Virus record (IMG/VR): IMGVR_UViG_3300025598_000023 | Location: 47,325 to 111,324 of that record | Length of the DNA stretch: 64,000 bases | DNA from: a virus | Reading direction: 5' to 3' (one strand) | Shown: piece after piece, positions 16,441 to 64,000 of the stretch | Position numbering within the stretch: position 1 is the first letter of the stretch | How the letters are laid out: each line of letters starts with the position of its first letter | Translations under genes and position numbers: made by a program | Notes under the pieces: generated by a model | Told to the model about the DNA's origin: nothing | Database searches by the model: none | What the model saw: the letters and a program-made list of their open reading frames with translations, nothing else

Positions 16441-17461
16441 ATTTCCACTTTGGCATTGGCACATTGAAAATAGTAGTATTTGTAGCTTGCGTTGTCCTCG
16501 CTGCCCTCGCGCAGAAATTCCCGATACACTTGTTCAAACTAGTCTTGGTTTAGATTTTTTTAAGAAGAATTTTAATCCAGAATTTATGCAAGACGTTTGG
16601 CAAATTAGTTTTTGTGGTGATGATGGAGACCCAATTTATGGTAAGGAATTTTTAGAAGTAGTTGAATATTTAAAAACTACAAAACCTAATTTAAGTTTAC
16701 GCATTGTTACTAATGGAAGTTTTAGGAACGAATCTTGGTGGAAAAAACTTTCTCATAACTTGAATCAATATGATGAAATTCATTTTAGTTTGGATGGATG
16801 GGATCAAGAAAGCAACGAAAAATACCGTGTCAATAGTGATTGGGATAGTATAACAACTGCTATAAAAACTGTCAGAGAAAATAGTAATATTATAATGACT
16901 TGGGCTGCAATTGCTTTTAAATTTAATCAGTATGATATTATTACTATGAAAGATTTAGCCGTTAAATGGAATTTTGATATATTTCAACTTACCTACAGCA
17001 CAAAGTTTGGTAGTAAGTATCCTAATTATAATACCGATGGAAAAGACGAGCTTGAACCAAATTCACAATTCATTGCAAAGGGACATAGGTTTAGTCGTGA
17101 AATAACGAATCTCACTGATAGAAAAATACTAGACAATGGTAAAAACCAAATAAATTTAGATTTATATCAAAACATTAATAATGTTAACGATATAATTCCA
17201 CTTTGTAAGATTGGTAATAAAGGTCTTTATATTAGTAGTGAAGGATATTTTTATCCATGTTGTTGGATGGCAAATAGGTATAATCATACACGTTGGCAAG
17301 AGTTTCGTCAGCCACAATATAACTTGAACAAAAGAAACATAAGTGATATATTAGGCGATGAAATGTGGGACAATTTTTTTAATAATTTAAACAATTATGA
17401 TGAATGTAAAAATAAATGCTGTTCACAAAATTTTAATGAGGGATATGCGACATCGTGGTAA
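16433..17461 (+). CDS. radical SAM protein with C-terminal Cys cluster
   Basis: 342 residues from the ATG at 16433, which overlaps the previous stop by eight bases. CSLRCPRC (residues 17-24) is a CX3CX2C SAM cluster placed right at the N-terminus. C-terminal cysteines (a CK..., YPCCW and an ECKNKCC segment) could hold auxiliary iron-sulfur clusters as in SPASM proteins. It differs from its neighbours in lacking the long N-terminal twitch region. Substrate unknown. Confidence 0.8.
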   Translation: MYKFPLWHWHIENSSICSLRCPRCPRAEIPDTLVQTSLGLDFFKKNFNPEFMQDVWQISFCGDDGDPIYGKEFLEVVEYLKTTKPNLSLRIVTNGSFRNESWWKKLSHNLNQYDEIHFSLDGWDQESNEKYRVNSDWDSITTAIKTVRENSNIIMTWAAIAFKFNQYDIITMKDLAVKWNFDIFQLTYSTKFGSKYPNYNTDGKDELEPNSQFIAKGHRFSREITNLTDRKILDNGKNQINLDLYQNINNVNDIIPLCKIGNKGLYISSEGYFYPCCWMANRYNHTRWQEFRQPQYNLNKRNISDILGDEMWDNFFNNLNNYDECKNKCCSQNFNEGYATSW

Positions 17462-18816
17462 GAAGCAAACGTCCAGATGAATCTTTTTTAGAATATAAGC
17501 AGCGTATTCTTGATACTAAAAGTGCATCATTCTGTGGTGCTAAGTGGTATAATGCTACAATTTGGCTAGGTAGTGGGCAAACTACAAGCTGTCATCACCC
17601 ACTGCCGCATCAAGTAAGTGTAGAACAAGTTTTGGCTAACCCTGCTGCATTGCATAATACTCCAGAAAAGAAACAACAACGATTACAAATGCAAAAAGGT
17701 GAGCGTCCAAGTGGTTGCGAATATTGCTGGCGTATTGAAGATTCATCTCCTACTGCCATCAGTGACCGTCCTTATAAAAGCATGCTATATAGTGAAGAAG
17801 AACTAAACACTGCATTTAATACACTGTATAAATTAGATGTTAATCTTCGAACATTGGAGATAGCCTTTGACCGCACTTGTAACTTTGCTTGCAGCTATTG
17901 CAATCCCGCTTTTAGCACTACTTGGGTTAAAGACATTAAAGTTAATGGACCATATACCAATCTGGTTAGTGATGGCCGCAATCATTTTACCCATCTACAT
18001 GATAGTTCTCAGTTATATGGTTTCACTGACACTAATCCATATGTAGAAGCATTTTTTAAGTGGTGGGAAAGTGATCTACATAAGACACTACGTGAATTGC
18101 GTATTACTGGTGGCGAACCACTTATGAGTGGTCATACTTGGAAACTACTTGATTGGTTTAAATTAAATCGTGGCAAAAGTGAAACAAAACTAGCTATCAA
18201 CAGCAATCTTGGCATGGATAATAAAAAGTTAAATGAATTTATTGAAGCTGTTCGTGATATTCCACACGTAGAAGTTTATACAAGCTGCGAGGCATTTGGT
18301 AGTGCAGCAGAATATATTCGTGATGGTTTAGATTATAACCAATGGTTTGATAATCTTGTTGCACTGCATAGCAGCGGTGTAGTTAAACAATTGCATGTTA
18401 TGGCAACTATCAATGGTTTATGTTTGATGTCGCTTCCTAAATTCTTAAAACACATGATGGATTTTAAGATAGGACGAGGAAAAAGTTCTTTAACTTTTAC
18501 GCTCAATATTTTACGTTTTCCTAGTTTCCAAAGTCCAACTGTTATGCCACACAATGTTCGTGAAAATTGTGCAGTTGAATTAGAAAAATTTTTAAATAGT
18601 TACGAACATAGTAATTATTTGCATCAAATGGAAATTGAACATATCAAAAGATTAATTGAATACCTTCGCAAAGTTGAAACACCTCACGAAGGTGCAAGTA
18701 ATAAAAATGTGTTAGAAAAAGATTTTAAAAATTTTTATGAACAATATGATGTTCGTCGTAATAAAAATTTTATAAAAACATTTGCAGAATTGGAAAATTG
18801 GTATAGTGGCTTATAA
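17455..18816 (+). CDS. twitch-type radical SAM protein 2
   Basis: 453 residues from a GTG overlapping the previous stop by seven bases. The SAM cluster CNFACSYC lies at residues 142-149, and a ITGGEPLMS segment follows. N-terminal SCHHPLPH, AALHNTPEKKQQR and GERPSGCEYCWR match the first gene of the array closely, so the two are paralogues. The C-terminus (FYEQYDVRRNKNF) also matches that of the first (FFNEHDSRRKTNF). Confidence 0.85.
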   Translation: MVRSKRPDESFLEYKQRILDTKSASFCGAKWYNATIWLGSGQTTSCHHPLPHQVSVEQVLANPAALHNTPEKKQQRLQMQKGERPSGCEYCWRIEDSSPTAISDRPYKSMLYSEEELNTAFNTLYKLDVNLRTLEIAFDRTCNFACSYCNPAFSTTWVKDIKVNGPYTNLVSDGRNHFTHLHDSSQLYGFTDTNPYVEAFFKWWESDLHKTLRELRITGGEPLMSGHTWKLLDWFKLNRGKSETKLAINSNLGMDNKKLNEFIEAVRDIPHVEVYTSCEAFGSAAEYIRDGLDYNQWFDNLVALHSSGVVKQLHVMATINGLCLMSLPKFLKHMMDFKIGRGKSSLTFTLNILRFPSFQSPTVMPHNVRENCAVELEKFLNSYEHSNYLHQMEIEHIKRLIEYLRKVETPHEGASNKNVLEKDFKNFYEQYDVRRNKNFIKTFAELENWYSGL

Positions 18817-20095
18817 TTATAACGGTAAAGAACCAATCAAGATTGAAGTTGACCAATTAAGTAATAAGCACAAAGAGCTTATTTTTGAAAATAAAACATT
18901 TTGCATGTATCCGTGGATTCATCTACATGCCTTTCCAACTGGTGAAGCATATCCTTGTTGTAATACAGAGATGAGTGAAACTGTTGGTAATACACGTTAT
19001 GATACTCTTGAAGAAATATGGCATAGCGCACCTATGCGTGATATTCGTAGTAAAATGCTTGCTGGTGAACATGTAAAAGGTTGCAACCGTTGTTATGAAC
19101 AAGAACAAAACGGTTTCTTTAGTATGCGTATGAGTGCCAATAAACATTTTGGGCATCATATTACTTTAACTGACAATCCTACACCACCAATGAAAATGAT
19201 TTATTGGGATATCAGATTTTCTAACTTATGTAACTTAAAATGTCGTAGTTGTGGTCATATCTTTAGTAGTAACTGGTATGATGATCAGGTTAAGTTATTA
19301 GAATTAGAACAAGCTACTGCTGAAAGTTGGAAAACAAGAAATACAAGAATAAATTTTGCTGGAAAAACCGAAGATGATATTTGGGAACAGCTAGAACCAC
19401 AGATTGATAATCTTGAACAAGTATATTTTGCTGGTGGTGAACCACTTATTATGGAAGAACATTATCGTCTTCTCAATGAACTGATTAAACGTGGTCGTAG
19501 TGATGTACGATTAATTTATAATACTAATTTTAGTCAGCTTACTTACAAGAAAACAAATGTGTTAGAATTGTGGCGTGAGTTTAATAGTGTCAGTGTTGGA
19601 GCAAGTCTTGATGCTATGGGTGCTCATGCTGAATATATTCGCAAAGGAACCAAGTGGTCGCAAGTTGAACAAAATCGTGAGCAAATGTTAAAGATTTGTC
19701 CTAATGTAGATTTTTACATAAGTCCTACCCTAAGCATTATGAACGCTCTGCACTTGCCTAAATTTCATCGTGAATGGGTGAATCGTGGCTTTTTAAAACC
19801 ACAGGATTTAAATATTAATATACTACAAGACCCACCACATTATCGTATTGACGCATTGCCATTCCAGTATAAAGTAGATATACAAGAATTATATCTAGAG
19901 CATATTAAATGGTTAAAACCTCAAGATAAATTAACTCGTGCAACAATTGGTTTTGAAAGTGCAATTAACTTTATGATGGCAGATGATAAATCAGATTTGT
20001 TGCCAAAATTTATTCAAAAAACCGCGCAACTAGATAAAATAAGAAATGAAAATATATTAGATGCAATTCCAGAGTTAGGGTATTTGTATGAATAA
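18806..20095 (+). CDS. twitch-type radical SAM protein 3
   Basis: About 429 residues from a GTG at 18806, which overlaps the upstream stop by eleven bases; a TTG at 18782 would add eight residues. The N-terminal twitch-like part has TFCMYPWIHLHAFPTGEAYPCC and KGCNRCYEQE. The SAM cluster CNLKCRSC is at residues 142-149, followed by VYFAGGEPLIM. It is in the family with CMYPW/CC/CNRC cysteine pairs shared with the next two genes. Confidence 0.85.
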   Translation: MAYNYNGKEPIKIEVDQLSNKHKELIFENKTFCMYPWIHLHAFPTGEAYPCCNTEMSETVGNTRYDTLEEIWHSAPMRDIRSKMLAGEHVKGCNRCYEQEQNGFFSMRMSANKHFGHHITLTDNPTPPMKMIYWDIRFSNLCNLKCRSCGHIFSSNWYDDQVKLLELEQATAESWKTRNTRINFAGKTEDDIWEQLEPQIDNLEQVYFAGGEPLIMEEHYRLLNELIKRGRSDVRLIYNTNFSQLTYKKTNVLELWREFNSVSVGASLDAMGAHAEYIRKGTKWSQVEQNREQMLKICPNVDFYISPTLSIMNALHLPKFHREWVNRGFLKPQDLNINILQDPPHYRIDALPFQYKVDIQELYLEHIKWLKPQDKLTRATIGFESAINFMMADDKSDLLPKFIQKTAQLDKIRNENILDAIPELGYLYE

Positions 20096-21287
20096 TATTT
20101 GTATATTGCCTTGGATTAGTATAGAAACAACACCACTTGGACAAATGCGAGTTTGTTGTTTAGCAAATGAAAATATTAAAGATACGAATGGCAAAGATTT
20201 GCTCATTGAAAACACAACACTATCATCTGCTTTTGTAAGTGAATATATGAATGATCTTCGTAAGTCTTTTATAAATGGTGAAAAACCATCTGTGTGCAAT
20301 CGTTGTTGGAGCGAAGAAGAAAGTGGACGAACTAGTAAGCGACAAAATAGTTACAATCGTCTTGGTAATCTTGTAAAGCATATTGATTTTAGTAATCCAA
20401 ATAGTGGTGATTTAATATTTCTTGATTTAAAATTAGGAAACATTTGTAATCTTAAATGCAGAATTTGTGGTAGTTTTAGTAGTTCAAAGTGGGCGCAAGA
20501 AGAAATAGAAATTAATAAAGAATATCTTACTGAATATCATAGACCAGCAAAAGAGTTCTTAAGACAAGGACAATGGCCTCGACAAGTTTCTGCTTTTTGG
20601 AATGATTTAGATGTTTTGCTGCCACACATCCGCTATTTGGAATTTACAGGTGGTGAACCATTTTTAATCACCGAACATTTTGACTTTTTGCGTCAAGCTA
20701 TAAATCTTGGTGTTGCAAAAAATATTGAAATTCATTATAACACTAATGGAACACAGTTTCCTGAAGATGCAATAGATATATGGAAACAATTTAAACTTGT
20801 AGAAATCGCACTTAGCATTGATGATATGGGTGCAAGATTTGAATATCAACGTTATGGTGCTAAGTGGGATATTGTTGAAAAAAATTTAAAAAACTTTAGA
20901 GACTTGCGAGATAAAAATAAGAATATTGTGCTACAATTATGTTTAACTGTAAACGCATTAAATTTTTATTATATAGATGAAATATTAAATTGGGTTCCGC
21001 ATCAAATGTTTAATTACCATTATCTTAATGTAGTTCATGATCCACCACATTTTTGTATTAAGAACCTTAATGATGATGCAAAAGAAATGATAACAAGAAA
21101 AATTTCTCAAGCAAATATTCCATCTATATTTGTTGATGAAATTAAAAATTTATTGCAATTTATGAATAGTGGAACTGGCACAGATTGTTCATATCTGATA
21201 CAAGTATTACGTGATAGTGATAAATTTCGCAAACAACATCTTGCAGATCATCATCCAGAGTTGGCGGCAGCGATTGGTTATGAATGA
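20088..21287 (+). CDS. twitch-type radical SAM protein 4
   Basis: 399 residues, overlapping the previous stop by eight bases. Cys positions ICILPW, VCC and SVCNRCW in the first 75 residues match the twitch region of its neighbours. The SAM cluster CNLKCRIC is at residues 120-127, followed by LEFTGGEPFLI. A DPPHF segment near the C-terminus parallels DPPHY in the preceding gene. Substrate unknown. Confidence 0.85.
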   Translation: MNNICILPWISIETTPLGQMRVCCLANENIKDTNGKDLLIENTTLSSAFVSEYMNDLRKSFINGEKPSVCNRCWSEEESGRTSKRQNSYNRLGNLVKHIDFSNPNSGDLIFLDLKLGNICNLKCRICGSFSSSKWAQEEIEINKEYLTEYHRPAKEFLRQGQWPRQVSAFWNDLDVLLPHIRYLEFTGGEPFLITEHFDFLRQAINLGVAKNIEIHYNTNGTQFPEDAIDIWKQFKLVEIALSIDDMGARFEYQRYGAKWDIVEKNLKNFRDLRDKNKNIVLQLCLTVNALNFYYIDEILNWVPHQMFNYHYLNVVHDPPHFCIKNLNDDAKEMITRKISQANIPSIFVDEIKNLLQFMNSGTGTDCSYLIQVLRDSDKFRKQHLADHHPELAAAIGYE

Positions 21288-22584
21288 TTTTTGTGTAGCA
21301 CCGTGGACACATACATATATCTCACCTCAAGGTGAACGCCGTTTATGCTGTGCATCACGTGAACCTGCACAGAACTTTAAACAATATATTGATACCGCTG
21401 GTGGTAATGGACAATTTAATCCGCTTACATTAAAGGAATGGTGGAATGGTGAACATATTAGGGAAATTAGAAAACAATGGTTGTCTGGTGAAGTTCCTTC
21501 TGCATGTGAAGTCTGTGATAAGAAGTTACTTAATACCTCTGTTTATCGCGATTACTTTGGTCACTTGTTTGGTCATATTAGATCAGATATACAAGCTAAT
21601 ACTGATGCTGATGGTTATACAACTTTAGAACCAATCTCATGGGACTATCGTTATAGTAATGTATGCAACTTCAAATGTCGCATGTGTGGCGATATGTTAA
21701 GCAGCGCGTGGGAAGTTGAAGTTCGCAAAAATTCTATGGTTGATTTGTCTAATCCAAAGAATTATTGGATGCAACCAAAGAACCGCCATGCTATCCGTGA
21801 TTTTACTCGTGATGTTGTAATACCAGAATTTAAACAAGCCATTGAAAACAAAAGTGTGCGCGAAATTTACTGGGTAGGTGGCGAACCACTACTTTATGAT
21901 GAGCACTGGACATTCATGCGCCGTATAATTGAATTGGGGTATGCAGATCAAGTTCGTGTGCGATATAATACTAATTTAAGTTATTGCAAAGATTCGCAAG
22001 GAACACTTTGGGATTTATTGCAACACTTTCCGCATTGGGAAATATGTGCAAGTTTAGATGGAACAGGAGCGATTGGTGAATATATTAGAACTGGCCTTGA
22101 CTATGATATGTTTTTACAAAATTTTAGACACGGTGTTGAACAATCAAAACATCCTCGTCAGATGCGTATCGACTTTACTCTTACTACCCCTGGGTTATTT
22201 GATTTGGAAAATATCATCGCTCTTGCTGATGAACTGAATGTTGAATTATTAAGTAAGGTAGTATTTGCTTTCTCGCCTGACATACTAATAAGCCCCTTGG
22301 CACTACCTAGAATGGTGCTAGAACCACTTTTAGATGGTATACAGAAGCGTATTAAACCGCTCATTACTCGTCGCACACAAAGTTTATGGGATGTTCTAGA
22401 ACATCTTAAAACTCGTCCTACATTTGCAGAACAGTTTTCTGATACCTATAAACGTGAGGCAATTCGTGGTAAAACGCATCTTTTAAAATTGGAATCTATT
22501 CGCAAAGATGCTAAAATAAAAATGGAAGATATTCTATCAAGTGAACCAACTGTTCTATCATGGTGGAATTCTATTGGTGAATAA
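21280..22584 (+). CDS. twitch-type radical SAM protein 5
   Basis: 434 residues from the ATG at 21280, overlapping the previous stop by eight bases; upstream in-frame codons lack conserved content. FCVAPWTHTYISPQGERRLCC and ACEVCD give the N-terminal twitch cysteines. CNFKCRMC (residues 129-136) binds the SAM cluster, and YWVGGEPLLY follows. It is the last of six consecutive radical SAM genes. Confidence 0.85.
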   Translation: MNDFCVAPWTHTYISPQGERRLCCASREPAQNFKQYIDTAGGNGQFNPLTLKEWWNGEHIREIRKQWLSGEVPSACEVCDKKLLNTSVYRDYFGHLFGHIRSDIQANTDADGYTTLEPISWDYRYSNVCNFKCRMCGDMLSSAWEVEVRKNSMVDLSNPKNYWMQPKNRHAIRDFTRDVVIPEFKQAIENKSVREIYWVGGEPLLYDEHWTFMRRIIELGYADQVRVRYNTNLSYCKDSQGTLWDLLQHFPHWEICASLDGTGAIGEYIRTGLDYDMFLQNFRHGVEQSKHPRQMRIDFTLTTPGLFDLENIIALADELNVELLSKVVFAFSPDILISPLALPRMVLEPLLDGIQKRIKPLITRRTQSLWDVLEHLKTRPTFAEQFSDTYKREAIRGKTHLLKLESIRKDAKIKMEDILSSEPTVLSWWNSIGE

Positions 22585-49206: not shown

Positions 49207-49659
49207 TCATTTTGTTGTTACTATTGCTTTAAGTGCTTGATATTCATTATATGCATCACGCAGTTCTTTATCAATATTCATTTCCCATTTTTTACGAGCA
49301 GCTTCATATTTTTCATACGCATCTGCTAATATAGGAAACTCGCCGTGTAATTCATCGTTTTTTGTAATTAAACAAATTGCTTCGCATACATTTTCATAAA
49401 AGTTATCAAGATTTATTTTATTGTGATTTGTGTTAATAAGTGCATCGGCGTTATCTCGTGGTGTAATGTCCAAACTATTAGAAGTAATTGCAACCGTAGG
49501 AGATTGTTGAACACTCCAACCAGAGGTAGTTAATATAGAACCACTACCGCCACCGCCACCACCAACTGTATTGATTGTATATGTTGTAGTTGAACCTGTT
49601 GCACCAATTGCGGGTGCGTATGTAGTTTTAGACGGACTTTGGACGATGTTGACGGTCAT
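49207..49659 (-). CDS. T4-like protein with Gly-rich linker
   Basis: 150 residues. The start MTVNIVQSPSKTTYAPAIG, a strand, then a run of glycines (VGGGGGGSGS) and the C-terminal helical region with ADAYEKYEAARKKWEMNIDKEL resemble a small protein in cyanophage structural clusters. The start overlaps the upstream gene by 32 bases. A structural or chaperone role is possible; function unknown. Confidence 0.55.
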   Translation of the reverse strand: MTVNIVQSPSKTTYAPAIGATGSTTTYTINTVGGGGGGSGSILTTSGWSVQQSPTVAITSNSLDITPRDNADALINTNHNKINLDNFYENVCEAICLITKNDELHGEFPILADAYEKYEAARKKWEMNIDKELRDAYNEYQALKAIVTTK

Positions 49660-49981
49660 GCTTCAATTTAGCAGCAAAAGCATCAGGAGTCAATTTATAT
49701 TTCTTAATAAAAGCATTATGCAAATCTTTTGGATCAATTTGGAAAGCACCACAAATACTACGCATTACATCATCAATACTAACATAATCAATATGTTCCA
49801 TGCCATCTAAATTATCTGCAAGTCTTGCAACAGCATTGTCCATATTGGTGCTTTCTGCACTATCAATTATTTTATTATATTTCCAACGTGCAGCCATTAG
49901 TCCACGTGCACCAGCACTGATTGGATGACGACCTTGAATACCTACACTCATTGCTGCTTCAAGTATTTCTTTAATACGCAT
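49628..49981 (-). CDS. putative packaged internal protein with capsid-targeting-like N-terminus
   Basis: 117 residues. The N-terminus MRIKEILEA ends in ILE followed by Ala, like T4 capsid-targeting sequences cut by the gp21 protease after (I/L)xE. The rest is helical and basic (SAGARGLMAARWKYNKII, DLHNAFIKKYKLTPDAFAAKL). No ribosome-binding site is visible, and a GATAAATA late-type motif ends five bases before the ATG. Internal-protein role is inference. Confidence 0.55.
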   Translation of the reverse strand: MRIKEILEAAMSVGIQGRHPISAGARGLMAARWKYNKIIDSAESTNMDNAVARLADNLDGMEHIDYVSIDDVMRSICGAFQIDPKDLHNAFIKKYKLTPDAFAAKLKHDRQHRPKSV

Positions 49982-49985
49982 AAGA

Positions 49986-51083
49986 TTATTTATCGGTTAC
50001 TGACCACACTTCTGGTGGAAATAATATACTGCTATCAGTATTCCTGTAACTATCTAATTTCTTTAATCTTAAAATTGCTTGTTCAAGTTGTTTTTTGTTG
50101 CTTGGTTGTTGTAATTCATTTATAAGATAAGAAAAATTAGGAATGGTATTCAAGTCATCAATTAATTTTTCCTTGACAGATTCTGGTAAATTTCTTGCTG
50201 TATAATAAGATGGATTTATTACCAAGTTTGGAACAATTTCACAATTAAAGCGTTTTTTCAAAATTTCAAAATCTTCTTTTGTGTTATATGCGTTTAGTAA
50301 ACTATAAGTGTAGATTATATAAAGATTTGCATTTGGTATTAATTTTAGTCTATTAAAATTTTGTAAAGTAGTGTCCCAAGAAGCTGGCCATCGTATGGTT
50401 GCAAATCTTTCATAAACTCCATCAATACTAAATCCAATATTAACTGATTTAAATTTAATTAATTTGTTAACAATACTTTCATTTAATACTGTTCCATTAC
50501 TAAAAAAATGCAAATCAATTTGTTCACTAAAATTATTATCGACTGCCCATGATAGTATTTTTTCTACCTTTTTACTATACATGGGTTCACCACCATAAAT
50601 TGTAAGTTTCTCTATATTTTTCCAAATTTCGTTTAATAAAATTTGGTCAATATCGTTGTTAATTTTATTTTTAGATGGGTCATGTTCACCCATTCTTTTT
50701 AATTCGGCAGACCATCTTGTGCTGCTATCACTAAAACATGTGATACAAGCAATATTGCAATTATTATCAACTCTAATTTCTAAATTTTTTAATTGGAATT
50801 TATTTTCTAAAAATAATTCATAGTCAAAATCATCATAACTTGATTTAAAATTTAATCTATGACTTTTTGTATTTCCATCTTGTTCAGTTTTTTTGCAATT
50901 ATAACAACCAGGGTGCCATTTGTTATCTTTGATGTATTCTCTAACCTCTGAATTTGCAGTTTGAATATCAGTAAAATTTTTGTTAAAATTTGGTAAGAAG
51001 TAACAACATGGTTTTACTTTATTAGAATCAAACACCAAATCAGTGAATGGTCTTAAGCAAAACGTATCAGTAAATTGTGTCAT
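49986..51083 (-). CDS. twitch-type radical SAM protein 6
   Basis: 365 residues. N-terminal FCLRPF, KPCCYF and HPGCYNCKKTE are twitch-region cysteines as in the 15-22 kb array. CNIACITC (residues 109-116) is the SAM cluster and LTIYGGEPMY follows. It is more AT-rich than the array members and sits alone among putatively packaged proteins, with a four-base overlap upstream. Substrate unknown; proximity suggests one of the neighbouring proteins. Confidence 0.8.
   Translation of the reverse strand: MTQFTDTFCLRPFTDLVFDSNKVKPCCYFLPNFNKNFTDIQTANSEVREYIKDNKWHPGCYNCKKTEQDGNTKSHRLNFKSSYDDFDYELFLENKFQLKNLEIRVDNNCNIACITCFSDSSTRWSAELKRMGEHDPSKNKINNDIDQILLNEIWKNIEKLTIYGGEPMYSKKVEKILSWAVDNNFSEQIDLHFFSNGTVLNESIVNKLIKFKSVNIGFSIDGVYERFATIRWPASWDTTLQNFNRLKLIPNANLYIIYTYSLLNAYNTKEDFEILKKRFNCEIVPNLVINPSYYTARNLPESVKEKLIDDLNTIPNFSYLINELQQPSNKKQLEQAILRLKKLDSYRNTDSSILFPPEVWSVTDK
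49987..49994 (-). promoter_or_regulatory. T4-type late promoter next to a start codon
   Basis: GATAAATA on the minus strand, overlapping the upstream stop codon and ending five bases before the ATG at 49981. Transcription from it would start at about the ATG itself. Confidence 0.4.
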
Positions 51084-51289
51084 ACCTTGCCGTTTGGATT
51101 TAAAATTGGTGGACGACCAAGTTTATCAGTTTTATTGCCAAATTTAGCAGCTTGCTTTTGTGTTTCACCTGGATGAATATCAACAGTTAGCGCATTAGCA
51201 TAACGTGGGTCACGTGCCATCTTTTTATTAGCAGGCACTACGCCTACACCAGCCGCTTCATCAAGGTCAAATAATTCAGTTAGTAACAT
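51080..51289 (-). CDS. small protein with capsid-targeting-like N-terminus
   Basis: 69 residues. MLLTELFDLDEAAGVGVV has LDE followed by Ala, fitting a gp21-type site. The rest, PANKKMARDPRYANALTVDIHPGE and KLGRPPILNPNG, is basic and resembles small conserved proteins or C-terminal modules in aquatic T4-like phages. Likely packaged in the head; evidence is motif and context. Confidence 0.55.
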   Translation of the reverse strand: MLLTELFDLDEAAGVGVVPANKKMARDPRYANALTVDIHPGETQKQAAKFGNKTDKLGRPPILNPNGKV

Positions 51290-52266: not shown

Positions 52267-52761
52267 TCACTTCTTTTTTGCGAATGTCTTTACATAAATT
52301 GGCTTCTTGCCGCTTCCGCCAGTATCTTTGCCACCACGACCAGCAGCATTTTGTGCTTTGCGCTTGCGGGTAACTGCACTCTTTTTCTGTGCAGCAGTCA
52401 TTCTACGTGCCTTCGCTGCTGGCACACATTTGGCATAACCACGCTTGCTGCCACTTGTTCCGCAAGGTGGATGTTTGCCTTTTACTTTTTTACCAATATT
52501 AACCCATTTATCAGTAAACCACTTATGAAGATTACTGCTCGCTTCGCCTAAAATTTCTGGAATAATTAAGTTACCACAATTTACACAATAATCAAGATTT
52601 TCTAAAATATTTTGTTCTGTAATTGGTTCGCAAATAATATCTGTGCTTTCGGTTTTCTTATTCTTGACACAGTTTGGATATGTCTTGCCAAACATTTTTT
52701 TGTTACCTTCTTTGTGGTAACCTTTCCAACATGCTTCGCCAAGAACATCTTCCATCTTCAT
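52267..52761 (-). CDS. putative packaged two-module basic protein
   Basis: 164 residues. MKMEDVLGEACWKGYHKEG shows LGE followed by Ala, then a short CWKGY...GKTYPNC module. A second LGE-Ala at EILGEASSNLHKWF starts another module with GKHPPCGTSGSKRGYAKCVPAA, resembling DUF5872-like basic domains. The C-terminus is Lys/Arg/Gly-rich. Two identical LGEA sites, each in front of a distinct module, suggest a polyprotein cut in the prohead. Its DNA-binding character is inferred from charge. Confidence 0.65.
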   Translation of the reverse strand: MKMEDVLGEACWKGYHKEGNKKMFGKTYPNCVKNKKTESTDIICEPITEQNILENLDYCVNCGNLIIPEILGEASSNLHKWFTDKWVNIGKKVKGKHPPCGTSGSKRGYAKCVPAAKARRMTAAQKKSAVTRKRKAQNAAGRGGKDTGGSGKKPIYVKTFAKKK

Positions 52762-53435
52762 TTGGATTTATTGCCCCAATTCTTTGCGCCTGCTTTGCGG
52801 CACTTAACTAGCGCACCACTTGCATATGCACTTGGCCATACTTTATAACGGCTCTTTACTTTATAATAGCAAGCATCTTTCTTTTCATCTACTCGTGATT
52901 CTGGTAACATTAAGCCACCACAATGTGGGCAACTTTCTTCTACGTTGTCATGTGCAGCAGCCCCAACGATTTCATCATAATTTTCCATGCAAAGATAATC
53001 GTGATGTTTAGACAATTCAATCATCTTTTCAGCAACATCATGCAAATCTTCGTCGGTCTTTGCATCTTCACGAGCATATTCCATCATACGAAGCAGTAAT
53101 GGAATATCCATACTGACTGTATCAGTGGCATCTGCTTCTGGAATCATTTCAACATTTTCAGTTGAAGAAATTTTAGGTTTACGAATAGCACTGCCTGGTA
53201 AAATTTTATCCATGGCTAAATCAATGCCAGCACGTTGTTTTTTAGTTTTGCCAGCGGGATTTGCAGTTAAAACATTTGGATTGCGAGCAAGACGTTTGCC
53301 AACATATGATTTTAATGTATTTGTTTTCAATTCGTCAACGTGTTTTGGCTTTTTACCGCGCTTCTTCATATTAATAGCAATCGCTGCTTGTTGCGCTGGA
53401 CTACTTGCTTCTAAAATAATATCTTTGATTTTCAT
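52758..53435 (-). CDS. putative packaged multi-module protein
   Basis: 225 residues. MKIKDIILEASSPAQQAAIA has ILE followed by Ala, then a basic module MKKRGKKPKHVDE. A further MIPEADATDTV site precedes a helical module (LLLRMMEYAREDAKTDEDLHD) and a Cys pair CPHCGG. The end has DACYYKVKSRYKVWPSAYAS and ALVKCRKAGAKNWG, a module I recall from other aquatic phages. Head-internal protein by analogy with T4 internal proteins; not proven. Confidence 0.6.
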   Translation of the reverse strand: MKIKDIILEASSPAQQAAIAINMKKRGKKPKHVDELKTNTLKSYVGKRLARNPNVLTANPAGKTKKQRAGIDLAMDKILPGSAIRKPKISSTENVEMIPEADATDTVSMDIPLLLRMMEYAREDAKTDEDLHDVAEKMIELSKHHDYLCMENYDEIVGAAAHDNVEESCPHCGGLMLPESRVDEKKDACYYKVKSRYKVWPSAYASGALVKCRKAGAKNWGNKSK

Positions 53436-54375: not shown

Positions 54376-54383
54376 TATTTATG
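54376..54383 (-). promoter_or_regulatory. T4-type late promoter (CATAAATA)
   Basis: CATAAATA on the minus strand, 17 bases before the ATG at 54358 with GAGGA between; it matches the T4 late core at seven of eight positions. Confidence 0.5.
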
Positions 54384-56178: not shown

Positions 56179-56952
56179 TTATTTTTCGGCTTTTCTTTTT
56201 GCCCACCATGCCTTTATTCTGATACTCTGTTCTTCTGCATACTTTGTATCATTTTTTCTATTTTCAGAAAACTGTTTTCTTTTTTCTTTTCGTTCTGGTG
56301 TATTTGCCGCTTTTTTTTGTCTCTCAATTCTAATTTGTTTTTGCTCTTCGGTTTCATTTTGATAGTATTTTTTTATTTTTGCACTGCATTTTTCTGAAAA
56401 TTCTGCATTGTTTTTCTTTTTATTATTATTTTTTTGTGTTTTTTCTAACCATTGCTGGTCTTGTGATCTTTTTTGTGCAGCAAGAAGTATTTTTTCATAA
56501 TATTCTATATCTGTTTCATATTTTAATTTTATTGCGTTGCTTGTTTTAATTTTATTATTTTCATTAGAATAATATTCCGTTAACTTGTCTGATAGTTTTT
56601 TACTTCTTTTTGGATCATTATATATTTTTCTTTTTTCAAGGTCTGTTTTAAATTTATTTGTTGCGCCGCCATCTCCACCATTTGCAATATTCATACATAA
56701 AAAATTATCTTTTATTTTGTGTTCATTTATTACTATTGTTTCAAAAACATCCGCTTCTTTTTCATTATTACATATATGAATAGTTTCTCTTTCAAACTGT
56801 TCTATACCATATTTTTTTATAGCTCTACGTAATAAAAGACCACTTCCCAAATACCCATCAAATGCATGTGGATCATCTAATAAATTTAAATGTTTTCCAA
56901 TATAATATTTTCCGTTAATTTTATTTGTTGTTTTGTATATAATCCAAATCAT
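56179..56952 (-). CDS. GIY-YIG homing endonuclease
   Basis: 257 residues from the ATG at 56952 (a TTG at 56967 is the only earlier start). IIYKTTNKINGKYYIGKH contains the GIY-YIG-type signature, with GSGLLLRRAIKKYG and ICNNEKEADVFETIVINEH adding the conserved Arg and Glu positions. A long Lys/Glu/Asn-rich C-terminal half is a modular DNA-binding tail as in T4 Seg proteins. The DNA is very AT-rich. It probably spreads itself among related phages. Confidence 0.85.
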   Translation of the reverse strand: MIWIIYKTTNKINGKYYIGKHLNLLDDPHAFDGYLGSGLLLRRAIKKYGIEQFERETIHICNNEKEADVFETIVINEHKIKDNFLCMNIANGGDGGATNKFKTDLEKRKIYNDPKRSKKLSDKLTEYYSNENNKIKTSNAIKLKYETDIEYYEKILLAAQKRSQDQQWLEKTQKNNNKKKNNAEFSEKCSAKIKKYYQNETEEQKQIRIERQKKAANTPERKEKRKQFSENRKNDTKYAEEQSIRIKAWWAKRKAEK

Positions 56953-56956
56953 AAAG

Positions 56957-57127
56957 TTATTTATCAAAAAACTTTATTCGGCGTTCTACTTTTTTAACCC
57001 ATTCTTTGCTTGGATGACCACTACCACGATAATATTGCAGCACTTTTTTAGGGTTGGACTTGCTAACTAAAGCCCAACGACCCTTTACTTTTTTAAGCGT
57101 TTCACTTATAAACTCATGCGCTCGCAT
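56957..57127 (-). CDS. small packaged-type protein, 56 residues
   Basis: The ATG at 57127 lies behind AAAGGTGA, ten bases after the stop of the giant gene. The protein begins MRAHEFISETLKKVK and continues WALVSKSNPKKVLQYYRGSG with a basic end. HEFISE followed by Thr is close to T4 capsid-targeting peptides (..EFIxE). The WALVSK..P.KVL.YY core is a small conserved phage motif from memory. Its stop is close to the homing endonuclease start. Confidence 0.65.
   Translation of the reverse strand: MRAHEFISETLKKVKGRWALVSKSNPKKVLQYYRGSGHPSKEWVKKVERRIKFFDK
56958..56965 (-). promoter_or_regulatory. T4-type late promoter next to a start codon
   Basis: GATAAATA on the minus strand overlaps the stop of the 56-residue gene and ends five bases before the homing endonuclease ATG at 56952. 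Confidence 0.35.
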
Positions 57128-57138
57128 TTATATCACCT

Positions 57139-60100
57139 TTAAACTTCACGAATAAAATATATTCCTCGTTCATAACCATTTCTTAATGTATCATCAAGAC
57201 CTTGTTCTTTATAATATTGTAATAATAGTTCATATGCTTCTGTAGGTGTAGCCGCACCAACATCCATAATTGGTGAAGTGCCATTAAAAGTTGTGTACAA
57301 TCTAAACACCTTTGGTGCAGTAGGACTACCAATACGGTTTAGAATTTCATCATTTGGTTGTGGTTTTGGTTGTGGTTGTGGTTTTGGTTTTCTAACACCT
57401 GCTGCGTATTCTTGTGGTGTCCATAATTCAAAATCACCATGATTGTATTCTATGCTACGTGCTATTCTGTAATAATTTTGCTTTAGTTTTGTTATAGCAT
57501 CATCATAACTATTAGCACGAACACGCAAGTATACCCATCTGTTAGCTGTGCTTATTACATAAAACTCTTGTTTGCCTGAACCTATTACGTGAGCAAGATT
57601 TATATCTTGTTTGCCCAAATTAGGAACACCATAGCCAGTTCCAACACCTTCTAATCTGCGAGTACCACGATAGATTAGCATAGTGTTATCATGCGCTGCT
57701 GCATATTGTGTTGCAATTTCTATAACTTGTTGTAGCGTGTATTTTGCTGGATCAAACATACCAATTACATGGTCGTTGTAATCTTCAATACGATATGCAA
57801 ATGCTTCATATGTTAATTTGGCAGATGGTTTAAAATCTAATTTTTCTGCTTCAATCTTATTGATTTCTCTTGCAATAGCAGCAATACTACTATTAAAATA
57901 ATCATATGTGCTTAAATTTACAGCATTTCGCTGCTCTTTAGTCATATTAGGTATAAAATAATTTTCTATAGCACTTTCTGCTTCTTCTCTACTATATGTT
58001 TTAGGTAGCAACATTACTGTTTCTGGGTAGTATCTGCTTGTTCCTGTTGATAGAGTCATTGTTGCATGCCAAACAGAATAAAACGGCCAATTAAACACAT
58101 AATTGCTTGGGTTTTGATTACGTTCACGTAACCAATCATTTGCAAGTTTAACTATTTCATTTATTCCTTCGCCACGAACTTCTACAACACTATCGCCATC
58201 ATTTGATTCAATATTGGCTACAATTTTACCCTGACCAATTGGTTTTACAGGCTCACGTTTCTTTTGTGCAGCAGTTACTTGTGCAATCAATTCATCTTTG
58301 CTGATGCCACCAGCAACATATTTTGCAAAAATATCAACTGTGCTTGTAGGTTGTTTAATGCTATCTACAATAAGTTTATAAAACTTTTTAGCATATTCTT
58401 GTTTGCTATCTTCTGGGTCAGCAGCAGCAGCCATTGCACGAACATAACGCAACATAGTATTGCGTATTTCATCATATTGTTCAAAGTAATTGCCACCAGC
58501 ACTGCGGAACTCAATATAGTTAGACTTGATATTCACGCTTACATAACGGTCGCCACGTGTGCCACTAATAATTTTGTTTATTTCTTTATTAGTTTGGTCA
58601 AGTAAACCAACACGTGCATCATCCAATATTTGTGGTAGCGTCTTGCGGAAATCACGCATTTCTGTTGCTTTCTTGGCTTGGTCAAGCATACTTTTAGTCC
58701 AACGGCTGTTTAGACGACCAAAACGTTCTAATACATATTTGTCACCAAGCAACAACACAAGTTTAAGGTGATTTATGTTTTCCATAGTTTGTTCTGGAAT
58801 ACTAACGCCAATATGGAAACCAGTTGTTCTATTGGTATAATAACCATTACTTTTTGCCCATTTAAACACGGTTTGAAGCGCAGCAAGACCATCATCAAGC
58901 AGCATAGGTGGTGATACAAGTTCAATGCCACCATCTTCATCATCATTTGGACTATCAAGTGAACTATCTGGTTCAAATATCCAAGTGCTTTCATCACGTG
59001 ATGCATTATGATAGCCACTGCTTGCTCGTGCTTTATAACCAGTTGTGCGTCTAAAATCATCTACAACATCACCAATATCTGTTGTTGGTTCTCTACTGCT
59101 GGTATATGTATAATACGGCCATGACAGTGATTCACGAGTATTGCGATTTACCCAACGCATAAAGTCATACATATCATCAATGCTATTGCGACTTATGAAA
59201 TTACGCCAAACTTCATCTTCGTTGTTTTCCATCCAAGCGGTGCGAACATTATCTTTGGCATCATCAAGTTCACTTTCACTTGCTTCATCCATAGGCGTGT
59301 CGCCTAATTCTTCTTGAACCTCTGCTTTCCAATCTGTAGTATTTTCATAATTCTCGTCATAAAACTCATATTGGTATTCACTAAATGCTTCATAAAAAGA
59401 TTCTAATGCACTTTCAACCTCACGACGAGTATTGATTCCATTACCGCCAGTAAAGAAGTTCATAACATCACGTTGACGATCACGATAGGATGCACTGCTT
59501 GGAAACTCTTCGTTGGCATCCATATCCTCTTCTTCTTCCTCTTCGCCTTCTTCACCGCCAAGACCAGGAATATACATTTCGGTTTCAAAACCAACCTTCA
59601 TGCTCTTTGCAAATGGTGTATCAGCAAACTTTTCAAGAGATGTAGGACTCATATTGATTTCATTGAGGATACTTTCTTCAATGCTTTCGTTGCGAGGAGC
59701 AAGTTGAACTTCATAACTCTCATCACCAAGATGTTCGTTTGACCAAGATTCAGCATAGCGTTCAGCACCACGAGGTGATGCTGCACGGAACTCATGGACT
59801 ACACCGCCTCTGGCAATAATTTGATATTTTACACCTTCGGCAGCAGTGATATTAGTTTGCTGTCTTGGGATAGCATTGCCCGCAATATCATAACCACGAT
59901 CAATTTCTATTTGTGAATATTGGCGTGGTTGTTCTGGTTGTGGTCTTGGTTGAGGAATTGTTTGACCTTGTGTATCCCATAAATTATCATTGTTGGGTGA
60001 TCTTATAGCAATAGTTGCTAATGGAAGACCACGCTCTTGCGCAAATCTTTGTGCTGCTTGACTTGCTTGGTAAAAACTGCGTGCTTGTGTTGCTAATAAT

Positions 60101-63100
60101 TCTGTGCCATCGCTGCGATTTACAACAACATATGTTCCACCAACATTACCAGATTGTGTTTGTGCTTGTGTGCCAGCACCAGCAATAGGTGTCATTGTAT
60201 CATCATTTGCTAATGTCAAGTACCAAGAGTCTTGATTATAACCATATTCACTTGTTAATCGATTAGCCGTTTGAAGAGCATAATTTACATGTCTTTCACG
60301 GAACTGTGCTATTGCAGTATTATCGCTTGCTTTACGGATAACATATAATTCACCATTACCAGGTATTCCAACTGTGCGTGTTTCTTCACCAGTGGTAATA
60401 TTATAATAGTGTTTAACACCCATATAATCTTGGCGCAGTTCTACACGACCATTGGAAATATCGTGTTGATGCAACCAACGATCTGCTAAATCACGTGCAT
60501 CATTAAGATTATCCGCACGAATTTTTTTGAATTCTATATCTGTATTATAAAAAACTATTGTATATTCATTAGAACCGCTACCAAGTGCTTGTTCATCACC
60601 AGTAAAACTAATTGGCGGCAATGTTGGCACAAGATTACCTGTAACTGCACGTGTTTTTACACGAACCAATCGTGTATCGCCAAAACGATAACCATTATAA
60701 TCTGCCCAATCACGTGCGGTTTTATAAGCAGCGTATGGATCATTACTATAAAAAGTATGGACCGTTTTGCCAGCCACACGATCCATAATTTGATATTCTT
60801 CTGTGCTTGGATTTTTACCACGACTAATATCACGCTTTGCTTGGACATTGCGAATTTGTGATAGCAGTGCTGCTTTTGGTATAGTGCCGCTTACATATTG
60901 TGAGAAGTATTTGATTGTATCTGTATCTTCTTTTTTAGCACCGCTTGCTAAAAGTTTATAAAACTTTTTAGCATATTCTTCTTTTTCTGCTTCTGGATCA
61001 AGTGCTATGCTTAACGCATAAACCGTGCGATAAAGTGTATTGATAACCGCATCTAAATCCATATCTAACCAATTACCACCAGGACTGCGTATTTCTATAC
61101 GATTATCTTTGGTGTTGATACTTGTAAACTTGTCAGTATATGTATCATGGATAATTTTACTTACTGTGCGATTTAAGTTAGAACGCATAAGTGATAATGC
61201 TTGTTCTGCTTTGGTAGGATCACGCTTAATAACATTTTCAATATTATCAAGTGCGCTCTTTGTATAGGTATTACCCAAACGACCAAAAGTATCTAATACA
61301 TACTTGTCGCCTAAAAATAATGCCATCTTTACATAATCAAGATTTTGTAAATTATAACCTGGTAAACTTACATTCATATGCAAGCCAGTAGTTCTGTTGG
61401 TATAGGCATTACCTTCTTTTGCCCATGCTGCTACTTTCTTAATAACATCAACCATATCAGGTATTTTAAGTGCTGGTGCAACAAACTCCCAACCTTCACC
61501 GCCACGACCACTACTTGCGTGTAGACTGCTATCAGGTTCTACTTTAAAGTATCCAGCTTTTTGGGCTTGTGCGTGATAACCGCCGCTAACTTGAACTGGA
61601 TAACCAACTGCCTGTCTAAAACTTTCTGCTGGTGGACCATTGCCTCTTGATGGACGATTATCATAATCTGGTTCTGTCCAATATGGCCAATTTAAATCAT
61701 AATTATTTGAAAAATTACTAAAATAACTACCGCCAGTAGTATCATCAAGAAAATCTTCTATTGGATCGCCATTTTCTTCATAATTTTCAAGCCAATCATC
61801 ATAATGTGATTTTTTAAATGCAGCATATGTATCTAGCGGTGGCAATTCAGGAAATAGTTCAGTTTGGTTTGCAATATCACGACCATATGTTTTGTCTAAC
61901 CATTGTTGATATCGTGTATCGGTTTGGCCGCTTTCAGGACTGTTAGCCCATGTATCAAACCTAATAGGCAACCATTCATCATAGTCTTCTCTTGCTCTTT
62001 CCAATGCAGATCGAACATCGCGGCGACTATTATGATCGCCATAGAAGAAATCCATGATTTCACGTTCAAAATCTTGCCAATCACTTGCCCTTACGTAGCC
62101 ATCATAACCAGCATAGTCTGGTTCGCTTTCAAAGTCCTCATATGGATCATAATCATCATCATCCGCATCTTCAAACTCGGTAACGATAAGTTCAAACTCT
62201 AAACCAGCCTTTGCAAGTGGTAATTTATCAACTGCACTTTTAAGCGCACTTGGACTCATATTCACTTCATTAAGTAGTTCTTCGGTAATTATATTGCTAT
62301 CACCTACTTCAATACCTTCAAGCCATGGAATCTTTGGACTGCTTGGTTCACCCATCATATGTTTATCCCAAGGAAATACACCAGTTTTACGGTCGGTTAG
62401 CACAGCACCGCCTCCAACAGTTCCTAAAATACTATTTGCATGTTCAATTTTTTGTTCTGGACCAAACTTCTTAATGAATTTTGCTTTGTCTTTTGGCATT
62501 TCGTAGTCCAGTGAAATTTGGTTATCAATTTTCCCACTCTCATCAGTTATTACATCAACTGCAATATGCTTGAATCCAAGTGCAGTTTGTGCATATACAC
62601 GATACATCTTTTTAAGATCATCCAAGAAACCTTGAACAAAAAATGTGAGAGTTGCTTTTGCAAAACGCACATATCCAAGTTTAAATGCTTCTTCATAACC
62701 ATCAATGTTTTTACTATAAAGCCACCCCAGATGTTCTTCTTTCGTAACATAAACAACTTTACGATCAGGCAATATCCAACCATGTGTTTCATTTGGATCA
62801 AGTGCTTCTTCAACACTTTCTTTCTGCTGTGCTTCTGCATCCCACTTCTTGTGCAAGAATGTCAGTAAACCCTTTACATCATTGGCACCAATCTTGCGCA
62901 TAGCAGCGATAATTTTAGTTGCCGCTTCATAACCACTGTTTCCTGGTTTACGAGCATTGGTAATTTCATTGCGTAGTCCAAGGTCATCAGCAAACTGACC
63001 ACCATTCCAATAGGTCAAACTATAACGCAGTTTATTTGCTTCTTTGGATAACTCACTGCGGCTCTTCTTAAAGATGAGTTCTAACCAAGGTTCAAGATAT

Positions 63101-64000
63101 TTCTTGCCATTGTAAGTGCTGATATAACCAGTCTTCTTTTGTCCACGTAGTAAATCTTGCGCTTTACTTACTGGTATTGCTCGCTTGGTATCTTGTAACT
63201 TCCACGCATTTTCATCACTATAAAGATAAGTTGGTAAACCACGCTTCTTTGCGGTCAACATCAACTGACGAGTAGTTGGACTTGCAAACTCACCTGCTTC
63301 TTTAAGCAAGATATGAATTGCTGTAATAGCATCTGCTGGTATAGTTGGCTCACGTGAGAATACACGGTCTTCACTTTCACTGTGCTTTTGCTTATCAAAT
63401 CCTGCCCAATAATCAATAGCCTTTACTAGATAACGACGATTGAACCAGTTGCCATCAAGGTTAAACATAACGGCAGTGCCGCCAGTAAACTCGTGATAAC
63501 CACCTACCTTGCTACGTGTTGTGGATAAGAAATAGTTGTAACCTTTCGGTGCATACTGGTCTTCTACACTACCAGTAGAAATGCTCAACATAAACTCATT
63601 GTTTTTAAGAATGTTTAATGCTGCACCCACGGAACCTGTATAATGGAACAACACTGGTGATGCTGCTTCGTCAAGTTCTGTTTCTTCTAAATCTTTACGA
63701 TGACTGCGCTTGTAATATGAACACCAACCATTTGCCGCAATCTTGCCACTAACAGCCGAACAACCGTGCGGTGGACGCCACATAGTGCAGTGGTCACAAC
63801 GCTGACCATCGTGTGGCATATCTTGATACTTTGCAACTGCTTTGGTTGACTTTTCTGCTGCTTCATTCGTTCTATACTTTGGTAAACCATATAAGTCTAA
63901 ATCAACACCGTGAGTTGAACCATAATCTGTATTATCTACATTAGGTTCATATGGCTTACGACCAAGTTTCACAAGTTTTGGGTTATCACCCCAATCACCG
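57139..64000 (-). CDS. giant multidomain protein: ART-like and two amidoligase-like domains, 5' end outside window
   Basis: Open to the right edge (in-frame GDWGDNPKL precedes the GTG at 63972), so the N-terminus is missing; at least 2286 residues. Numbered from that GTG: a Cys cluster C59, C62, C71, C84; an ADP-ribosyltransferase-like domain about 105-225 (FHYTGS, LSTTRS, ESEDRVF); an unknown region with a SVEEALDP linker; an amidoligase-like domain from 588 (LEFELI, EPDSSL, GWEFVAP, TGLHMNVS, IEIRSPGGN); about five 45-60-residue alpha/beta repeats; a second amidoligase-like domain from 1459; and more repeats with a Pro/Lys/Gln linker. LDE at 100-102 and LNE at 567-569 and 1436-1438 look like prohead-protease sites. 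It may be packaged, cut and injected; this is inference. Confidence 0.75.
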   Translation of the reverse strand, partial: GDWGDNPKLVKLGRKPYEPNVDNTDYGSTHGVDLDLYGLPKYRTNEAAEKSTKAVAKYQDMPHDGQRCDHCTMWRPPHGCSAVSGKIAANGWCSYYKRSHRKDLEETELDEAASPVLFHYTGSVGAALNILKNNEFMLSISTGSVEDQYAPKGYNYFLSTTRSKVGGYHEFTGGTAVMFNLDGNWFNRRYLVKAIDYWAGFDKQKHSESEDRVFSREPTIPADAITAIHILLKEAGEFASPTTRQLMLTAKKRGLPTYLYSDENAWKLQDTKRAIPVSKAQDLLRGQKKTGYISTYNGKKYLEPWLELIFKKSRSELSKEANKLRYSLTYWNGGQFADDLGLRNEITNARKPGNSGYEAATKIIAAMRKIGANDVKGLLTFLHKKWDAEAQQKESVEEALDPNETHGWILPDRKVVYVTKEEHLGWLYSKNIDGYEEAFKLGYVRFAKATLTFFVQGFLDDLKKMYRVYAQTALGFKHIAVDVITDESGKIDNQISLDYEMPKDKAKFIKKFGPEQKIEHANSILGTVGGGAVLTDRKTGVFPWDKHMMGEPSSPKIPWLEGIEVGDSNIITEELLNEVNMSPSALKSAVDKLPLAKAGLEFELIVTEFEDADDDDYDPYEDFESEPDYAGYDGYVRASDWQDFEREIMDFFYGDHNSRRDVRSALERAREDYDEWLPIRFDTWANSPESGQTDTRYQQWLDKTYGRDIANQTELFPELPPLDTYAAFKKSHYDDWLENYEENGDPIEDFLDDTTGGSYFSNFSNNYDLNWPYWTEPDYDNRPSRGNGPPAESFRQAVGYPVQVSGGYHAQAQKAGYFKVEPDSSLHASSGRGGEGWEFVAPALKIPDMVDVIKKVAAWAKEGNAYTNRTTGLHMNVSLPGYNLQNLDYVKMALFLGDKYVLDTFGRLGNTYTKSALDNIENVIKRDPTKAEQALSLMRSNLNRTVSKIIHDTYTDKFTSINTKDNRIEIRSPGGNWLDMDLDAVINTLYRTVYALSIALDPEAEKEEYAKKFYKLLASGAKKEDTDTIKYFSQYVSGTIPKAALLSQIRNVQAKRDISRGKNPSTEEYQIMDRVAGKTVHTFYSNDPYAAYKTARDWADYNGYRFGDTRLVRVKTRAVTGNLVPTLPPISFTGDEQALGSGSNEYTIVFYNTDIEFKKIRADNLNDARDLADRWLHQHDISNGRVELRQDYMGVKHYYNITTGEETRTVGIPGNGELYVIRKASDNTAIAQFRERHVNYALQTANRLTSEYGYNQDSWYLTLANDDTMTPIAGAGTQAQTQSGNVGGTYVVVNRSDGTELLATQARSFYQASQAAQRFAQERGLPLATIAIRSPNNDNLWDTQGQTIPQPRPQPEQPRQYSQIEIDRGYDIAGNAIPRQQTNITAAEGVKYQIIARGGVVHEFRAASPRGAERYAESWSNEHLGDESYEVQLAPRNESIEESILNEINMSPTSLEKFADTPFAKSMKVGFETEMYIPGLGGEEGEEEEEEDMDANEEFPSSASYRDRQRDVMNFFTGGNGINTRREVESALESFYEAFSEYQYEFYDENYENTTDWKAEVQEELGDTPMDEASESELDDAKDNVRTAWMENNEDEVWRNFISRNSIDDMYDFMRWVNRNTRESLSWPYYTYTSSREPTTDIGDVVDDFRRTTGYKARASSGYHNASRDESTWIFEPDSSLDSPNDDEDGGIELVSPPMLLDDGLAALQTVFKWAKSNGYYTNRTTGFHIGVSIPEQTMENINHLKLVLLLGDKYVLERFGRLNSRWTKSMLDQAKKATEMRDFRKTLPQILDDARVGLLDQTNKEINKIISGTRGDRYVSVNIKSNYIEFRSAGGNYFEQYDEIRNTMLRYVRAMAAAADPEDSKQEYAKKFYKLIVDSIKQPTSTVDIFAKYVAGGISKDELIAQVTAAQKKREPVKPIGQGKIVANIESNDGDSVVEVRGEGINEIVKLANDWLRERNQNPSNYVFNWPFYSVWHATMTLSTGTSRYYPETVMLLPKTYSREEAESAIENYFIPNMTKEQRNAVNLSTYDYFNSSIAAIAREINKIEAEKLDFKPSAKLTYEAFAYRIEDYNDHVIGMFDPAKYTLQQVIEIATQYAAAHDNTMLIYRGTRRLEGVGTGYGVPNLGKQDINLAHVIGSGKQEFYVISTANRWVYLRVRANSYDDAITKLKQNYYRIARSIEYNHGDFELWTPQEYAAGVRKPKPQPQPKPQPNDEILNRIGSPTAPKVFRLYTTFNGTSPIMDVGAATPTEAYELLLQYYKEQGLDDTLRNGYERGIYFIREV
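57353..57391 (-). repeat. Pro/Lys/Gln-coding tandem repeat
   Basis: Repeats of TGGTTGTGGTTT type encode PKPQPQPKPQPN, a stiff extended linker between the last alpha/beta repeats of the giant protein. Replication slippage could change its length. Confidence 0.6.
58255..62262 (-). repeat. diverged tandem duplication in the giant gene
   Basis: Two units each start with NMSP(S/T), 19-21 residues before an ExE (E592/E594; E1463/E1465), then repeat in order: EPDSSL, E.V(A/S)P, TNRTTG.H, LGDKYVL..FGRL, IE.RS.GGN, and a EEYAKKFYKL or QEYAKKFYKL helix. The two copies are clearly homologous but diverged, so the duplication is old. Confidence 0.8.

Follow-up and report, generated by a model that had tools for sequence, protein, structure and literature searches.

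A giant gene of a freshwater T4-like phage probably encodes a head-cargo polyprotein with ART-like and amidoligase modules

The long reading frame at the end of the window, by which we mean the whole stretch of 64,000 nt that was analysed (positions 47,325 to 111,324 of IMG/VR record IMGVR_UViG_3300025598_000023), very probably encodes a head-cargo polyprotein. Its leader would guide the chain into the prohead, an S77-family prohead protease would cut it at LxE sites, and the products would be delivered with the DNA. The observations computed for this reading are the domains and their folds, the protease gene, the likeness of the leaders to those of T4, the conservation of the sites, the tie between leader and S77 and the shuffling of modules.

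The frame lies on the minus strand (57139-63999) and is open for 2,286 codons. Its 5′ end runs off the edge of the window and of the 111,324-bp linear contig (G000:C1), and the true start is absent. The GTG that the earlier note took for the start is the first start codon within the fragment and not the real one, because the frame continues past the contig end. The source is a freshwater T4-like phage. Its contig carries a gp23-like protein (G000:C1:5604-6803; 68% identical to that of jumbo phage PA5oct) and a gp21-type protease (Peptidase_S77, E 2e-27; G000:C1:8078-8527).

Relatives were drawn from IMG/VR. Four are close, 15 are relatives of the ART-like module, and 79 amidoligase loci were taken from 284 found; 52 ART loci from the same source lie partly on the same contigs as the amidoligase loci. 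A complete orthologue in locus L030 (338-kb contig) starts MMTIINSTLKE/ASGP, where the slash here and below marks the predicted cut, and consists of the leader, a cytidylyltransferase-like module and then the modules in the order seen in the window. In loci L002 and L005 the chain is divided into two genes and a third amidoligase is present; the L002 chain also holds a ParB-like insert. The features of the window copy, from its N-terminal side, are as follows.

57139..63999, minus strand: frame of the putative cargo polyprotein, 5′ end cut by the contig end
63667..63855, minus strand: Cys4 (CxxC-x8-C-x12-C) HiPIP/iron-oxidase-like module (Pfam HIPIP, NCBIfam Iro)
63664..63669, minus strand: ELDE/A, predicted protease site before the ART-like module; LxE leader confined to S77 phages
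62806..63666, minus strand: ART-like module, 287 aa (H..S-x-x-R..D..E-x-E-x-R)
62266..62805, minus strand: LDPNETHGW... module of no assigned function, preceded by SVEE/A; L005 breakpoint
62263..62268, minus strand: LLNE/V, predicted protease site before amidoligase 1; gene start in L002, L005 and L009
60700..62265, minus strand: amidoligase module 1 (Amidoligase_2 match, homology to module 2)
59659..60699, minus strand: inter-amidoligase region, no assigned function
59656..59661, minus strand: ILNE/I, predicted protease site before amidoligase 2
58180..59658, minus strand: amidoligase module 2, predicted glutamine-synthetase-like fold (profile, motifs, model)
57142..58179, minus strand: C-terminal region, no assigned function

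The order is thus a Cys4 HiPIP/Iro-like module, the ART-like module, the LDPNETHGW module and the two amidoligases, which is more than the three enzymes (an ART and two ligases) counted in the earlier note. The Cys4 module matches Pfam HIPIP at E 4e-4, slightly under the cut-off, and NCBIfam Iro at 37 bits (E 3e-9), also under the cut-off; its homologue in S-SRM01 has a leader of its own, MKSFQEFLFE/E. The first ~120 aa of the LDPNETHGW module are missing from L005, and the breakpoint falls at the VEE/ site. Small tandem repeats were suspected between and after the amidoligases and are not claimed, blastp giving only E 0.03.

Two stretches match Amidoligase_2 (PF12224; 47.9 bits against a cut-off of 22, E 2e-12), and the two halves, which had been proposed to be homologous with an amidoligase-like domain in each, are indeed homologous (34% identity over 521 columns, E 3e-73). 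The core GxExE, ExDxS, E, TGxH and R is invariant in 53 sequences, both window copies included. An AlphaFold model (pLDDT 87.7) has glutamine synthetase, YbdK or glutamate-cysteine ligase as its top 29 PDB matches. The modelled fold is that of a COOH-NH2 ligase (glutamine-synthetase-like), and the catalytic motifs are intact in both window amidoligases. The ART module is also present at 22 of 75 distinct amidoligase loci, and the combination is therefore not unique to this phage; where it forms a separate gene at such a locus, it lies on the same strand (13/13). Neither the ART nor the amidoligase alignment, used as a sequence profile against PDB, retrieved a credible match.

The proposal of an ADP-ribosyltransferase-like domain after the LDE site has support at the level of structure, since the best PDB matches of the model have the ART fold, and fails at the level of families, with no Pfam match to a curated ART family among 33 ART-module members. 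The model (pLDDT 85.8) has Tpt1, DarT1 and the ADP-ribosyltransferase CteC at PDB ranks 1, 2 and 5, with a best Foldseek E of only 4.6e-3; the Tpt1 and DarT1 matches have probabilities of 0.99-1.00 but 12-13% identity and low TM-scores. In the 33 sequences H8, S48, R51, E97 and R101 are invariant and E99 is nearly so. Eleven ART sequences proved too divergent to be scanned with as one alignment, and two subsets were used instead; PADLOC returned nothing for this module. We conclude with moderate confidence that the module is predicted to have an ART fold resembling Tpt1 and DarT1. Structure prediction, by which both folds were to be checked, thus returned the two of them, the ART fold at this moderate level. 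Alt, offered before as the model for this domain, proved not to be a relative: membership in the R-S-E clade, as defined in PMC5512222, was rejected because the first conserved strand motif carries an invariant His in place of Arg. Owing to the resemblance to Tpt1 and DarT, a nucleic-acid target is at least as likely as a protein for this enzyme.

The junctions between these modules carry the argument for processing. ELDE/A, LLNE/V and ILNE/I are at open-frame residues 111, 578 and 1447 (102, 569 and 1438 in the numbering of the earlier note). The LDE and LNE sites claimed in that note are present, and NMSP begins both halves (LLNE/VNMSP and ILNE/INMSP). Across 74 distinct amidoligase starts the residue before [VI]xMSP is E in every case, and the residue two positions earlier is L or I (once V). 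Most of these are gene starts with leaders of 11-25 residues, for example MRYSQIKKALKEAEIIDE/VSMSP and MKYTEILEQLINE/VNMSP, and the junction that is internal in the window, SNIITEELLNE/VNMSP, lies at the start of a gene in L002, L005 and L009 (MKNNKDLILEEILNE/VNMSP). The ART module likewise follows [LI]xE just ahead of its first strand, whether as its own gene (MRATEFIAE/GATDILYHYT, MNIKEILIE/AATSVVYHYS) or internally, after LDE/, LTE/ or LNE/. At one junction, RTNE/AAEK, the window has lost the hydrophobic residue. The reading of the sites as gp21-type is supported by the S77 gene on the contig and by LxE junctions that are fixed in relatives and alternate with gene-start leaders.

An insertion event was counted where one of two homologous chains has an extra module of 40 aa or more. 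The ends of such insertions lie within 5 aa of [LIVM]xE in 87% of 174 cases, against 13% of background positions, although the 174 ends represent only eight junction classes, with one class lying away from a site. Control motifs are not enriched at these ends ([LIVM]xD 0%, xQ 3%, xA 11%). Breakpoints are also enriched in the reversed motif E-x-[LIVM] (57% versus 16%), because the linkers are Glu-rich. By chance, ~6-9% of positions fall within 3-5 aa of some [LI]xE. A single such motif is therefore cheap, and what counts is that it keeps its place in relatives and co-occurs with S77; the conservation of the sites is due partly to descent. By sequence comparison, module insertions mostly appear to break at LxE sites.

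The main rival to processing is an uncut polyvalent protein that is packaged and injected whole, in which the LxE stretches are merely linkers prone to recombination. Multidomain proteins of large size that are injected and contain ART domains have been described as a class (PMC5512222), and the linkers here are rich in Glu. The protein combines several unrelated effector domains, as polyvalent proteins do. Pfam scans of the window protein and of L002 found none of the hub domains MPTase, ArdC, SNF2 and MuF. We nevertheless regard an uncut chain as unlikely: the same junctions are the borders between leader and body of separate genes in relatives, the LxE leaders track the S77 protease, and xD, xQ and xA show no enrichment at breakpoints.

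The leaders themselves resemble those of T4 cargo. T4 gp21 cleaves after L/I-x-E, and ten N-terminal residues of IPIII are enough for packaging (PMC9026906). For a leader matrix, 21 leaders of amidoligases and ARTs were lined up at the cut site, with T4 left out. Among 20 T4 genes it gave IPII and IPIII (MKTYQEFIAE/) 16.5 bits and the next best gene 5.6; a matrix anchored at the N terminus did not rank IPII/IPIII high. The leader core EFIAE/ is identical in IPII/IPIII and some ART genes of this set. An N-terminal leader ending in L/I-x-E is found in complete orthologues and in single-gene homologues, the window copy being 5′-truncated.

The presence of such leaders follows that of the protease. 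Phages with S77 that bear an LxE leader on an ART, amidoligase or HiPIP-like protein are SCTP-2 (whose leader is very short, MNLNE/SLSATVF), Vibrio K566, Alishewanella phage Slicko01, Atu_ph07, S-SRM01 and contig G030; JA13, Lu11, RHph_I42, Sen-NF and a 314-kb contig (G029) have neither S77 nor an LxE leader, the comparison being not fully independent because some of the phages are interrelated. A near-complete gp23 is present in 8 of 26 large amidoligase contigs, and all eight of these carry S77. In the phages that lack S77, the ART homologues begin at the first strand or with another leader (MKPLYHFT, MILYHFT, MKIQLAVAGSSVLYH). This last observation bears on the possibility that the LxE residues are intrinsic to the amidoligase and ART folds and unconnected with proteolysis. 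The invariance of E at position -1 across the amidoligase set would fit such a role, which we consider extremely improbable: unrelated proteins have the same leader, though these were picked by leader score, and ART homologues of S77-less phages do without LxE. For the ART fold the idea was rejected on the homologues from JA13, Lu11 and Sen-NF.

Scoring with the leader matrix also yielded 80 further ORFs in IMG/VR loci (L030, L066, L071, L080, L093, L139 and others) with at least 10 bits. Many have leaders like MRA[TNQK]EF[LI]xE/, and in an alignment of 62 of them the common part is only MRxxEFIxE, a likeness that is partly circular because the ORFs were picked by leader score. Pfam matches among the leader-scored ORFs include superoxide dismutase, GNATs (acetyltransferases), chitinase, cell-wall hydrolase, DUF6321 and DUF6267. 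Directly after the amidoligase gene of L004 lies a gene (2750-3631) for a SprT/M76-like metallopeptidase with leader MRAHEFIVE/. A different leader, MKIQLAVA or MEMQLALA, recurs on several adjacent genes of Lu11-like phages without S77 (L103, L153-L156); it may tag proteins for some other packaging or protease system.

Leader-like N termini are also found on neighbouring genes in the window.

52758..53435, minus strand: gene with the capsid-targeting-like leader MKIKDIILE/A (12.6 bits, the highest of 101 contig ORFs)
52267..52761, minus strand: gene with the leader-like N terminus MKMEDVLGE/A, judged from the sequence
49628..49981, minus strand: gene with leader MRIKEILE/A and GATAAATA 13 nt upstream
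51080..51289, minus strand: small gene with the leader-like MLLTELFDLDE/A, read from its sequence

The T4 late-promoter core ATAAATA occurs 14 times on the contig where 64 occurrences are expected, and 10 of the 14 lie ~12-27 nt upstream of a gene start (in the window, for example, at 54376, 55510 and 49987). It is found at 18 of 51 amidoligase gene starts, compared with 15% of control ORFs; the promoter of the giant gene itself is off the contig. The sites in front of cluster genes hint at late expression, which would suit a protein that stays outside the virion, is not injected and works in the cytoplasm of the host while virions are assembled (on the cell wall or host proteins, for example). 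We judge this very unlikely, given that the leader matches those of T4 IPII/IPIII and that leader-bearing enzymes were detected in S-CREM2 virions.

Several other genes in and around these loci stand out; apart from that of the 4,665-aa gene, their assignments were made by eye. A run at 16394-22584 of the window looks radical-SAM/SPASM-like (Cys-rich N termini), which is unusual in a phage, and a similar gene lies within the cargo cluster (49986-51083). Just downstream of the polyprotein gene is a GIY-YIG-like gene (56179-56967), and a similar one follows in L003. A 4,665-aa gene (G000:C1:39456-53453) that enters the window at 1-6129 probably encodes a tail or fibre protein. Outside the window, three adjoining genes (G000:C1:18118-20514) resemble an ABC transporter (permease, ATPase and periplasmic binding protein), and L005 15385-16326 has the appearance of a TRAP-type binding protein.

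For the preferred reading as a processed head cargo we propose the following course. A capsid-targeting leader at the true N terminus would take the chain into the prohead core, where the gp21-type S77 protease would trim the leader and cut the [LI]xE junctions, freeing the modules. The predicted products are a HiPIP-like Fe-S module, a 32-kDa ART-like enzyme, a 20-kDa module of no assigned function and two chains of ~96-98 kDa, each with an amidoligase at its head. They would remain in the head beside the DNA and pass into the host when infection starts; there the ART-like enzyme might transfer ADP-ribose to a host molecule and the amidoligases might attach amino acids or peptides to host targets. 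We infer the actual cleavage, packaging and injection, as well as the enzyme activities, their targets and any role as a 'toxin'.

More broadly, we lean towards the view that aquatic T4-like and jumbo phages share a modular cargo system, in which a tag of 9-15 residues and LxE sites would load varied enzymes, singly or as polyproteins cut into injected effectors. Glutamine-synthetase-fold amidoligases would then add a new class to the injected effectors, and the arsenal would evolve by module swaps at the cut sites. If this is true, amidoligases would act in the first minutes of infection and the virus would employ its capsid-maturation protease to process an enzyme polyprotein. A tag and a cut-site rule that can be read from sequence would allow cargo to be predicted from genomes alone. 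To our knowledge, an early-infection role of head-packaged cargo is established for few phages beyond T4, the phiKZ group and N4, and we know of almost no targets of amidoligases. Neither a multi-enzyme cargo chain whose junctions are prohead-protease sites nor a head-packaged amidoligase turned up in the main texts of the open-access literature.

T4-type cargo, polyvalent proteins and cyanophage virion enzymes are already known. The gene analysed here shares with T4 IPI-III and Alt the S77 prohead protease and a short N-terminal leader ending in L/I-x-E (PMC9026906), and Alt is likewise an ART-fold enzyme. T4 cargo, however, consists of single proteins, whereas several enzymes with internal sites are found here in one chain; the ART does not belong to the Alt clade, and amidoligases are absent from T4 cargo. 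In phiKZ and SPN3US many head proteins are cut after Glu and ejected into the host, but with another motif and protease branch (PMC9026906); we know of no amidoligases among them. Agrobacterium phage Atu_ph07 provides a cultured-phage amidoligase of this family, gp196 (AUZ94978), with leader MRWQDISSKKLTE/ and S77 present. By its numbering gp196 falls within the cluster CDS 170-215, given as virion-protein genes in PMC6102473; it differs from the window protein in having one amidoligase in a 500-aa protein.

Among the non-structural proteins in virions of cyanophage S-CREM2 are a cytidylyltransferase, a SAM hydrolase and an APH-like kinase (PMC10665884). Leaders of its virion enzymes are MKNFSSFLTE/ (the cytidylyltransferase), MKDFDSFLEE/ and VKRFDAFLTE/, and the module that opens the complete orthologue is a homologue of this cytidylyltransferase (34% over 170 columns). 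A rule set after the sequences were viewed asks for an L/I-x-E that ends within residues 7-12. In the two regions compared, it picks out 6 of 13 non-structural proteins detected in virions and 3 of 52 undetected neighbours (Fisher p 0.0013); the leader-matrix score alone did not separate virion from non-virion proteins of S-CREM2 (p 0.13). The virion-detected gp12 of S-CREM2 (L165), a Cas9-like protein, starts ...PLRFASFMAE/AAVDQPG and is overlapped upstream by gp13, which starts MKDLHSFLTE/; the same tag may serve a phage for packaging a Cas9-like nuclease. The S-CREM2 enzymes differ from the present case in being single genes, and an amidoligase/ART polyprotein is absent. Polyvalent proteins are large multidomain phage proteins with ART domains and predicted early injection (Iyer et al., 2017, PMC5512222). 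Amidoligases are not mentioned there, and the chain described here differs further in being a predicted substrate of the prohead protease.
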